Assembly (NCBI GenBank): GCA_027046245.1
Contig: JALTZJ010000034.1
Location: 1 to 59,769, forward strand
Reading direction: 5' to 3'
Source: Acidilobaceae archaeon
GTDB lineage: Archaea > Thermoproteota > Thermoprotei_A > Sulfolobales > Acidilobaceae
DNA length: 59,769 nucleotides
Under the pieces are notes generated by a model. The model was not told the DNA's origin and did no database searches. It was given only the letters and a program-made list of their open reading frames with translations. Numbering within the stretch: the stretch's first letter is position 1; each line of letters opens with the position of its first letter. The position numbers were made by a program, and so were the translations under genes. Shown one piece after another: positions 19,923 through 23,494 of this stretch.

Positions 19923-20738
19923 CTACTCGGAGAGGGGTATCATAACGGCTATGTAGTGATCATTGTTTACCTGGGCAGTTATCACGGCGTTTGCAACAGT
20001 CAATGGTATAATAGCTGTGGGGTTGTTGAGATCATATGTAGCGATAACTATCTTGAGTGTCATGGACTCTCCGGGGGCTAGCGTCTCTATCCAGAGGGGA
20101 GCTTTAGGATAGTAGGAGAAGCCACTGCTATCTAGGATCTCTGCGAGGCTGAAGCCCTCTACTAGCCTTAGATTAGTGTATTCTACGTAAATAGTTGGGT
20201 TGACGGCGTTGTTCCAGTAGGTGGTATCACTGTACATAGTTCTACATGAGGGCATCGACTCGCCGAGGTCGACACCGCCGTTTCCAACAAGATTAACTAG
20301 GCCGTCACTGTCGAGGTCTACCAGGTAGAATATTCTGACATTGAGGCCGGCAGCCTCGTTCCCTGGCAGCGTAGAACTATGAATGGGTATAATACTAATT
20401 AATTGGTCAAAGTAGAAGTTCTGCCCTACTCTATAAGCCGGTAGAACCGTGAGACCAAACCTAACATCGGAGCCTCCTACATTAGCTAGGTTTAGAGTAT
20501 AACAATACACTGCTGGGGCATCAGTCTCATCGCTCTCCTTTAGAACTATAGAGGACTGGATACTACTAGCCACGGTATAAGCCGTAGCAGTAACTCCCTG
20601 CTGGAGCCTAGTCTGCGCTGCTACATTGTTAAAGAATGCAAACATTGCGAGCCCTATAGCTATTGTTACGGCCATTAGAATAACTATGGTTATGGGGCTA
20701 GCCTGTCCCCTTCTCGAGAGGTGTACTAGCTGGGCCAA
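19923..20738 (-). CDS. Archaeal type IV prepilin-like surface protein (271 residues)
   Basis: Surface or filament protein with a class III (PibD/EppA-type) signal: a short basic N-terminus 'HLSRRGQASP', predicted cut after Gly11, then a hydrophobic helix 'PITIVILMAVTIAIGLAMFA'. The mature part is strand-rich and has a calcium-loop-like 'DLDSDGLVNLVGNGG'. The start is TTG 20738, not the upstream end of the frame, because 'GGTGGAGGG' precedes it and a TATA box at 20779-20787 gives a start near 20758. It is divergent from the 817-residue prepilin-like gene, which shares its signal type and Asp-rich loops. Confidence 0.8.
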   Translation of the reverse strand: MAQLVHLSRRGQASPITIVILMAVTIAIGLAMFAFFNNVAAQTRLQQGVTATAYTVASSIQSSIVLKESDETDAPAVYCYTLNLANVGGSDVRFGLTVLPAYRVGQNFYFDQLISIIPIHSSTLPGNEAAGLNVRIFYLVDLDSDGLVNLVGNGGVDLGESMPSCRTMYSDTTYWNNAVNPTIYVEYTNLRLVEGFSLAEILDSSGFSYYPKAPLWIETLAPGESMTLKIVIATYDLNNPTAIIPLTVANAVITAQVNNDHYIAVMIPLSE

Positions 20739-20778
20739 AACCCTCCACCCACAGATATTCGTTAGAGCAGAGAAAACG

Positions 20779-20787
20779 TATTTACTA
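20779..20787 (-). promoter_or_regulatory. TATA box of the 271-residue prepilin-like gene
   Basis: TAGTAAATA on the minus strand, centred about 45 bp before TTG 20738. The leader would be about 20 nt. Confidence 0.5.
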
Positions 20788-20940
20788 ATTGTAGCAGAGA
20801 GGAGTATATCATTCACATAAATCAGATAATTAAAGAATATGTTAGTCGGAAATATGTGCATAACCTGTTTCTGTTTAAATAAATGTGTAATAGCAGTTAT
20901 GTGGATAGTAAGTATAAGTGATCGACACTAATTATCTAAC

Positions 20941-20949
20941 CTATTTATG
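20941..20949 (+). promoter_or_regulatory. TATA box of the 817-residue prepilin-like gene
   Basis: CTATTTATG within a 300-bp A/T-rich divergent region; the predicted start near 20970 leaves an unusually long leader of about 70 nt before TTG 21041. Confidence 0.45.
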
Positions 20950-20978
20950 TGTTGAATGCTATCTCTAGTCTACCGAGA

Positions 20979-20993
20979 GGGACAAATTGTCCC
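20979..20993. repeat. 15-bp palindrome in the giant prepilin leader
   Basis: GGGACAA and TTGTCCC around a single A. It lies just after the predicted transcript start, so it could be an operator or an mRNA hairpin. Confidence 0.55.
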
Positions 20994-20997
20994 CTCT

Positions 20998-21016
20998 GGA
21001 GGGCCCTGAGCCCTCC
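20998..21016 (+). repeat. Second leader hairpin before the giant prepilin start
   Basis: GGAGGG (20998-21003) pairs with CCCTCC (21011-21016) around a 7-nt loop, about 12 bp before the ribosome site AGAGGTGG at 21027-21034. Confidence 0.45.
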
Positions 21017-21040
21017 AAGGGGGATTAGAGGTGGTAAGCT

Positions 21041-23494
21041 TTGGCCGTGGGTGTCAGGAGTAGGAGTAGCGGGATAGGAAGGCTTAGGAAGGGCCAAGCG
21101 GAGGTCATAGGAGGGCTCTTCGTACTAACGCTCATATTCCTAGTAGCCTTACCTATAGTAATGAACTACTATAACCAGACGCTGACAGCCGTGGAAGATG
21201 TTGCCAGGAGTAATATAGTAGCTAATGTCGCTAGGAACGAGAGGATAGTGATTCAGCCTCTCGACCCAAACAATGAAGATTATTTAGCGCTTGGCTGGAT
21301 CCCAGGAGTATTCATAATCAACGCGGGAACGGTAGAGGTAGAACTCACTAGAGCCTACATAATCAACACGCAGACAAACAAGATAGACTATGTAATAGAC
21401 TTGACGACCCTGAGGCCGGGTGACCTCACGCCAACTCATGTAATCAAAGCAATAGCCCTCAACCCGAGCATAGCAAACCCCAGCGGAGAACCGCTACCGG
21501 CCGACGGCGAACCTATAGTGCTAGGCCCAGGGGATAAGCTGCTCCTAGCTTTCAACATAGTTAACCCAGATATCTATGTGTTGGCCGTCCAGTCAGCCAC
21601 GGGCGTTCTACACCCAGTAGGCGGAGGTAGCGAAAATACCCTCGTACCCACAGGCGGAGGCGGCACAGGGACAGGTACAGGCGAGGGCGAGGGAGTATAC
21701 AAGGGAATCTTCGCCCCGCTTAGCGGCTTCAAGATGCTAAGCGGCGAGGAGATAAGCGACAGCGGCTTCGTCAAAGTATGGAGGCCTGCAAACAGAATAA
21801 TTGAGTTCACAATAGCATACAGGTCAACCTTCATATACGATGATGACAGGTATCCAGGCTTCTACAAGATCTACATACTGAGCGACGAGACGACCACTCT
21901 AGAGACTACCTATGGCAACTGTTATATCAGGAGAGGCTGGGAGGTCTACATATATGGCTTCATAGGGACATACTATCCATACGCTGTCAGCACATGGTTC
22001 GGCACCGAGAACTACGTATTCATAGACGGTTATGCCTTTGAGATAGAAGTATACGATAGCGCCGGAAACCTAGTGTGCCCACTTAGGATACCACTAACGT
22101 ACAACGTAAACCCGGCTAGAACGGTCGATTTAATAGACTTCGACGGGAACGGCGTGCTTGAGCTGACTTTCTTCACCAGGCTGAACTCACCCACGACAGG
22201 AGACGCTGGTGACGTGGACATAGACGGCGACGGTAGCACTATAAGGGACGTGATACTGTGGGAATATGTTGTTCAGAGAGACATAGGCAGCGTTGACTTC
22301 ATACAGGTCAGCGGCAAGATAAACTATTACTGGACCAAGATCTTCTATTCGTCATGCCCGTCAAGCTTCAGACCACTAAAGATATTCAGTATAGTAGTGT
22401 GGAAGTTCGACGATACAGCAGGGAAGTGGCGCATATACAACTGGAAGGACTACTTCTACGTAGATGACAAGCCTAGGCAGTTCCAGTTCTTCGCGACATT
22501 CCCTGTCGAGAGAGAAGGCATCTACAGGGTCGGCGTTATCTTCTACGACAACTATAAGATGTTTGTAACCAGCTCTGGATACGATTGCTTCATCGAGTTC
22601 ACCTACGCCTTAGAATACATGACTGTCGAGTACGGCGTGATAAACCCGCTATTCGAGGAGACTCCACCAATATACATAGTAGCAATACCTGATCCAAACA
22701 AGATAAGCGGCATAGGAGAATATGACTATGCAAACGCCTATGGCATAACAGACATAGACCAGGCCAAGGTGCTAGCCCAAAAAGAGCTACTAAGCATCCT
22801 AACCGACGAGCTGAAGAGAGTAGGAATAGGAGCATATACTATAATAGACACCGAGTCAGAGTTCTGCAACGTGCTGTTCCCAGATCTAATAAGTGGAAAC
22901 GTGATGCAGCCGCCCAGAAACGCCGTAATCTTCTGGCTACAGGGCGACACCGATATACAGTACCTAGTGGACCCGACGATCTGCGGCATATCCTACGGTG
23001 CAGTTAGGGACCACGTAGCGCAGTATAACTGGGTATTCGTACAGATGACAGGTACACCATTCTGGACGCTAAGCAGCAACCCAGAACTATACTTCCTCCA
23101 ACTAGAATACGGAGACATAGCAATAGTGGACGGTGGCAACGCAGCCATAACTGACGATGGAGTAGCAGCTAGGGGCCGCTACGCCTTCATAGCAATGCTA
23201 AACGAGCTACCATTCCAGAGCAGGGTGCAACTAAGCACAGCAGCAAAGAGCTACGTCGTGTCAAACGCAACATTCTATTACAACCCCGACGATGACGCAT
23301 ACGGGCACGTAGCAATACTAAACATGGACCCCGCTAACCCAGAGGACAGGGGAGTCTACGTTATAATGCATGCACACATAGACTGGGACACAACCGGCGA
23401 CGGCATAGACCCGCTGACACTAGTCCAAATGGCTGTAGGAGGAGGACTAGAAGCCTGGAAATACGTAAAAACTCCCCTAATAACAGTACCATGA
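21041..23494 (+). CDS. Giant prepilin-like surface protein (817 residues)
   Basis: Begins like an archaeal prepilin or archaellin: basic 'RLRKGQAE' with a predicted cut after Gly18, then a hydrophobic stretch 'IGGLFVLTLIFLVALPIVMN'. At over 800 residues it is several times longer than normal pilins. After the helix come an N-terminal beta-rich region, a Gly/Thr linker near 205-218 ('GGGGTGTGTGEGEG'), a middle beta region with calcium-type loops ('DFDGNGVLEL', 'DVDIDGDGST'), and a C-terminal alpha/beta region from about 545 that has no recognised family. It is probably secreted and assembled or anchored on the cell surface. TTG 21041 follows a good ribosome site. Confidence 0.8.
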   Translation: MAVGVRSRSSGIGRLRKGQAEVIGGLFVLTLIFLVALPIVMNYYNQTLTAVEDVARSNIVANVARNERIVIQPLDPNNEDYLALGWIPGVFIINAGTVEVELTRAYIINTQTNKIDYVIDLTTLRPGDLTPTHVIKAIALNPSIANPSGEPLPADGEPIVLGPGDKLLLAFNIVNPDIYVLAVQSATGVLHPVGGGSENTLVPTGGGGTGTGTGEGEGVYKGIFAPLSGFKMLSGEEISDSGFVKVWRPANRIIEFTIAYRSTFIYDDDRYPGFYKIYILSDETTTLETTYGNCYIRRGWEVYIYGFIGTYYPYAVSTWFGTENYVFIDGYAFEIEVYDSAGNLVCPLRIPLTYNVNPARTVDLIDFDGNGVLELTFFTRLNSPTTGDAGDVDIDGDGSTIRDVILWEYVVQRDIGSVDFIQVSGKINYYWTKIFYSSCPSSFRPLKIFSIVVWKFDDTAGKWRIYNWKDYFYVDDKPRQFQFFATFPVEREGIYRVGVIFYDNYKMFVTSSGYDCFIEFTYALEYMTVEYGVINPLFEETPPIYIVAIPDPNKISGIGEYDYANAYGITDIDQAKVLAQKELLSILTDELKRVGIGAYTIIDTESEFCNVLFPDLISGNVMQPPRNAVIFWLQGDTDIQYLVDPTICGISYGAVRDHVAQYNWVFVQMTGTPFWTLSSNPELYFLQLEYGDIAIVDGGNAAITDDGVAARGRYAFIAMLNELPFQSRVQLSTAAKSYVVSNATFYYNPDDDAYGHVAILNMDPANPEDRGVYVIMHAHIDWDTTGDGIDPLTLVQMAVGGGLEAWKYVKTPLITVP

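Follow-up and report, generated by a model that had tools for sequence, protein, structure and literature searches.

In S. sanguinis, PilC, a large lectin pilin of modular build, is bound and stabilized at the pilus tip by the small minor pilin PilA (PMC9934059). Modular pilins occur widely among bacteria (PMC8179133). For archaeal type IV pili (T4P), the account by Makarova and colleagues proposes DUF2341 as a pilus-tip adhesin domain; it also describes, for the Desulfurococcales T4P subclade 4A, an ATPase, TadC, a PilA-type pilin, and three to four extra untraced components that are proposed as a minor pilin set (PMC4858521). The Sulfolobus Aap pilus is likewise an ATPase-platform-pilin system in which AapA is proposed to be a minor pilin or cap, and the portion of the source at hand describes no large modular subunit (PMC11178815).

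Here we analyze a divergent pair of pilin-like genes in a 59,769-nucleotide contig of an Acidilobaceae archaeon (the window), which belongs to a 1.38-Mb draft genome of 73 contigs. Like S. sanguinis PilA-PilC (PMC9934059) and the modular pilin PilB (PMC8179133), the pair combines class III signals with one small pilin and one large modular pilin onto which a beta- or lectin-type module is grafted, both encoded within a single pilus system. PilC is bacterial and about 53 kDa, whereas the archaeal mature protein has 799 residues and two head domains; glycan binding is a feature of S. sanguinis, and the archaeal pair is likened to that system by architecture and is not claimed as a member of its family. 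The likeness to subclade 4A lies in the content of Desulfurococcales T4P loci, and the available part of that source describes no paired small/large module for 4A (PMC4858521). None of the titles or opening abstracts that a literature search on modular pilins and archaea returned describes this archaeal pair.

RESULTS

The open reading frames of both genes were confirmed within positions 19923 to 23494 of the window. The large gene (21041 to 23494, plus strand) encodes 817 amino acids, and its TTG start codon at 21041 is preceded by a GGTGG Shine-Dalgarno sequence (21030 to 21034) and a 6-nt spacer. The small gene was first listed as a 312-amino-acid frame at 19923 to 20861 on the minus strand, and a GGTGG Shine-Dalgarno sequence with a 6-nt spacer lies within that frame, upstream of a TTG codon at 20738. 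Because this spacing is identical to that of the large gene, the small pilin probably starts at 20738, judging from the upstream sequence, and would be 271 amino acids long (19923 to 20738, minus strand) rather than 312. Between the two starts is a 302-bp intergenic region (20739 to 21040), in agreement with an earlier note that the genes share one divergent control region.

The 5′ leader of the large gene (20957 to 21036, plus strand) was predicted to form a multibranched RNA (minimum free energy of −53.6 kcal/mol; z of −4.4) whose closing stem spans the GAGGTGG Shine-Dalgarno sequence. No similar fold was found upstream of homologues, no second copy was found in the genome, and there was no match in Rfam. 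A structured leader as a shared regulator was rejected, as the fold was neither conserved in homologues nor repeated in the genome. At two other loci (L046 and L068), a gene resembling Fur-type regulators, judged by eye, lies between divergent small and large genes; L072 and L046 are the same contig.

Both proteins begin with a short basic leader ending in RRG or RKG; QA and a hydrophobic helix come next. In the small pilin, the leader MAQLVHLSRRG (20706 to 20738, minus strand) precedes QASPITIVILMAV, and the predicted cut falls between the two, before QASP; in the large pilin, residues 1 to 18 (21041 to 21094, plus strand) end in IGRLRKG and precede QAEVIGGLFVLTL, and the predicted cut falls before QAEVIGG. 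The basic leader, the Gly or Ala before the cut, and the hydrophobic helix are those of archaeal type IV pilins. The bacterial Glu5 rule was set aside: the archaeal major pilins found here also have no acidic residue at that position. Nearly all homologues of both proteins retain a basic residue and Gly or Ala before Gln and the hydrophobic helix, and the class III pattern is therefore not a product of chance. A prepilin peptidase (PibD/ArlK) is clear in relatives, and the window draft genome gave a weak trace (E = 0.01). The small pilin also matched PF13400 of the bacterial Tad pseudopilins TadE/TadG, over the N-terminal helix only and below threshold (E = 0.07 to 0.085; 13.6 to 13.9 bits against a cutoff of 22.3). 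We conclude that both genes encode the archaeal class III signal, as had been claimed.

The earlier note also pointed to Asp-rich, calcium-like loops in both proteins. In the large protein, the loops D366-x-D368-x-N370-G-x-x-E374 and D395...D403 were invariant among 13 homologues of 33 to 47% identity and rank among the most conserved residues. The small pilin carries the loop DLDSDGLVN (20292 to 20318, minus strand); the pattern D-x-[DN]-x-[DN]-G occurs in most of its homologues from family f1, and the acidic loop is absent from the small pilins of family f2. A strict acidic-loop pattern was present in most large homologues and about half of the small ones, compared with an expectation of 0.00 to 0.02 per shuffled protein. 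This conservation fits structural sites at which calcium may bind, as far as residue patterns can indicate.

AlphaFold predicted a long N-terminal helix followed by a beta-rich domain in both proteins, the arrangement of archaeal type IV pilins. In the small pilin (mean pLDDT of 89), the helix spans residues 13 to 59 and is followed by the beta domain. In the large protein (pLDDT of 78), a helix at residues 17 to 65 and strands at 69 to 185 form a base whose beta domain reaches about residue 190, followed by a disordered linker of low pLDDT (193 to 228), a beta jelly roll (225 to 535), and an alpha/beta domain (541 to 812); the arrangement of these domains is uncertain because the pTM was 0.45. 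On the plus strand of the window, the pilin base (residues 19 to 190) is encoded at 21095 to 21610, the Gly/Thr-rich linker (residues 193 to 224) at 21617 to 21712, the jelly-roll head with the acidic loops at 366 to 374 and 395 to 403 at 21713 to 22645, and the alpha/beta domain at 22661 to 23476. The linker differs in length and sequence among homologues. Thus, the structure prediction that the earlier note had proposed gave pilin architecture for both proteins and added two domains to the large one, which is predicted to be a modular pilin in which a pilin base carries extra domains through a linker.

Searches for known relatives of the head domains were mostly negative. Pfam and NCBIfam contained no recognized family for either protein, and PDB sequences gave no usable match for the large protein or for profiles of either head domain, so that the description of the C-terminal alpha/beta region as belonging to no recognized family stood. 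That domain had no fold match; it is common to the homologues in families f1, f2, and f10 and is missing from shorter relatives. Foldseek returned nothing below an E value of 0.001 for the small pilin, and a viral fold library returned generic beta-rich matches alone. For part of the large chain, Foldseek returned CBM16 and other jelly rolls (probability of 0.98 to 0.99; weak E value of about 0.006), a lead rather than proof, by which the head is predicted to be sugar-binding-like. The best Foldseek E values for the large protein were to glycoside hydrolases, through the beta domains of those enzymes, as might be expected if the protein were a surface enzyme, for example a glycan-active one, with an incidental prepilin anchor. 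The whole-chain TM-scores of 0.11 to 0.13 argue against such an enzyme, however, as do the invariant residues of the alpha/beta domain, which are Pro, Gly, Tyr, Leu, and Trp without a conserved catalytic set, and we give it very little credence.

Homologues were searched for in 197 genomes of the order. Sequence searches found the large protein in 31 genomes. Profile searches at E ≤ 0.001 gave 72, in many of which the match covered only the N-terminal part. A single-sequence scan of genome contigs returned nothing; an alignment-based search returned 19 loci. Homologues in Aeropyrum, Acidilobaceae, and other Desulfurococcales retain both the class III signal and the acidic loops, and they retain the partner as well. 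A search for the same gene pair in related genomes had been suggested, and among the 31 strong profile matches to the large protein, 27 have the small pilin gene as an immediate neighbor. Contig ends truncate three of the remaining four loci, and the last genome (G161) has its small pilin on another contig. Among weaker matches, the genes were paired in 25 of 27, a hand-chosen list that is not relied on. Lone homologues with unrelated N termini were looked for in the related genomes and were not found. Two complete genomes of the same genus as the window (G027 and G075) carry the pair too. We conclude that the small and large genes form a conserved pair.

The orientation of the pair varies. 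A divergent arrangement is usual in the window's family, and in families f2, f10, and others the small gene is followed in tandem by the large one; a second pair in the window genome (contig C62; L035, 2443 to 5706) is tandem with the large gene first. Shorter relatives include large subunits of 372 to 556 amino acids beside small pilins. A phage origin was rejected, as tblastn gave no match among 50,697 phage records. In family f11, tandem small (156 to 177 amino acids) and large (518 to 698 amino acids) class III-like genes (L157, 5762 to 8388; L158, 6078 to 8092) are weakly similar to the window pair.

One paralogue of the large protein bears a different head. In genome G093, of the same genus as the window, residues 16 to 193 of the window protein are matched by a gene at L041, 7903 to 10995 (34% identity; E = 7e-20), the head of which is DUF2341 (E = 1.9e-21) and the partner of which is a homologous divergent small pilin (31%; E = 1e-26). 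Through this paralogue, which shares the pilin base and the small-pilin type, the window pair resembles the large, PilY-like proteins with DUF2341 that archaeal T4P loci encode (PMC4858521); unlike them, the window protein itself has no match to DUF2341 (PF10102), nor does any other part of the window genome. We conclude that the head has been exchanged on a retained base.

Head exchange bears on where the pair might sit in a filament. The two proteins could be minor pilins along the filament or at its base, that is, decorations comparable to minor archaellins. The published model takes additional class III components of untraced origin to be minor pilins, near the base by analogy with the archaellum (PMC4858521), and a flexible linker would permit display from the side. 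Known tip complexes are nevertheless the better match for bulky multidomain heads with a dedicated small partner (PMC9934059, PMC8179133), and exchange for a DUF2341 head also argues against placement along the filament or at its base, which we regard as unlikely.

The earlier note had found no assembly ATPase or platform beside the genes. Indeed, the window contig contains no T2SSE gene, yet the absence is a local feature. Throughout the window's own family, the pair lies apart from the machinery, and the machinery of the window genome is on other contigs: C59 encodes an ATPase that is orthologous and 54% identical to that of L051 and is followed by a T2SSF protein, and C17 carries three major-pilin genes. 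The C59 ATPase and platform are probably cognate to the window pair. A gene transcribed away from them (L037, 8580 to 14447) encodes a secreted-looking protein of 1955 amino acids with C-terminal CarboxypepD_reg/PEGA, possibly a further surface component.

In several other families, the pair clusters with a T2SSE ATPase and a T2SSF/TadC platform. Pfam identified the adjacent ATPase as T2SSE in L051 (E = 1e-34) and L053 (E = 5e-28) and the platform as T2SSF in L051 and L052 (about 1e-22); for the L052 ATPase, identification came from a BLAST match to that of L051. Short pilins of the ISPILATVIL type lie within the L051 to L053 clusters, and the L051 major pilin has relatives among archaeal pilins of known structure (8fk7; E = 4e-6). 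BLAST showed the same set of ATPase, platform, and major-pilin genes around more distant pairs (L142 to L147). At L147, 10580 to 16655, two small and three large pilin-like genes stand in a row near the ATPase cluster, a possible expanded module. The T2SSE ATPase at L053, 5122 to 8184, is interrupted by an intein (PF14890, LAGLIDADG), and long ATPase frames elsewhere (e.g., L052, 1 to 3489; L154, 7600 to 10287) suggest the same interruption.

Presence of the large protein was also compared with presence of the ATPase across 36 genomes of the window's family, with a strong large match scored against an ATPase of at least 55% identity. Both were present in 16 genomes and neither in 14 (Fisher P = 1.3e-4, uncorrected for phylogeny). 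The 6 discordant genomes comprise 4 with the pair and no detected ATPase orthologue, all of them drafts, and 2 with the ATPase and no strong large match. The ATPase is widespread in the order, beyond genomes with strong large matches. One could suppose that the class III helix is a membrane anchor only and that the pair forms its own short pseudopilus or a membrane-anchored adhesin without a classical pilus; in the window's family the genes are transcribed divergently and at a distance from the machinery, which would suit this, and the large protein alone matches many surface adhesins in size. The co-occurrence of the large protein with the ATPase counts against an anchor or pseudopilus, as does the linkage seen in other families between the pair and genes for ATPase, platform, and major pilin, and we therefore consider it improbable. 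We conclude that membership of the pair in a type IV pilus is well supported.

DISCUSSION

We favor, at a probability of roughly 0.62, a reading in which an ordinary archaeal type IV pilus carries the pair as a two-subunit minor-pilin complex, the small pilin together with a modular tip adhesin. The earlier note had suggested two subunits of one unusual filament or adhesive structure. The proteins held up as a prepilin-like pair, and they do look like components of a filament or adhesive structure at the cell surface; an unusual filament of their own is improbable, as the clusters that join the pair to assembly genes encode a separate standard major pilin. Because that major pilin is separate, the pair is better read as a minor-pilin complex, probably at the tip.

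In the proposed mechanism, prepilin peptidase would cut off both short leaders just ahead of Gln, and the N-terminal helices of the two proteins would insert side by side at the start, or tip, of the filament, with the small pilin as partner or nucleator. The base of the large pilin would anchor it, and the flexible linker would present calcium-stabilized jelly-roll and alpha/beta heads. Because the growth of type IV filaments begins at the tip and proceeds toward the base, the pair would end up at the distal end, where it might be the first part to touch surfaces, other cells, or glycans. In the window genome, the ATPase and TadC platform on C59 and the major pilins on C17 would act in trans. 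By analogy, the archaeal pair in all likelihood works like S. sanguinis PilA/PilC, in which case the large protein may bind a ligand from a tip position.

More tentatively, and at somewhat less than even odds, the pair could exemplify a widespread, unnamed archaeal tip module in which a small pilin accompanies a large pilin of 372 to 1030 amino acids whose base is kept and whose head is exchanged, in one case for DUF2341. Such a module would be a counterpart of the bacterial PilABC/HIJK tip complexes, with weaker traces in other families of the order.

Published models of how archaeal type IV pili begin and of what forms their tips rely on analogy to position unnamed minor pilins. A conserved two-gene module tied to a specific ATPase is a concrete candidate for the initiator or tip complex and for an adhesin. 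The weaker f11 pairs might permit tests in genetically tractable species, if f11 is Sulfolobaceae. The module predicts that adhesive specificity would change through swaps of heads on one base.
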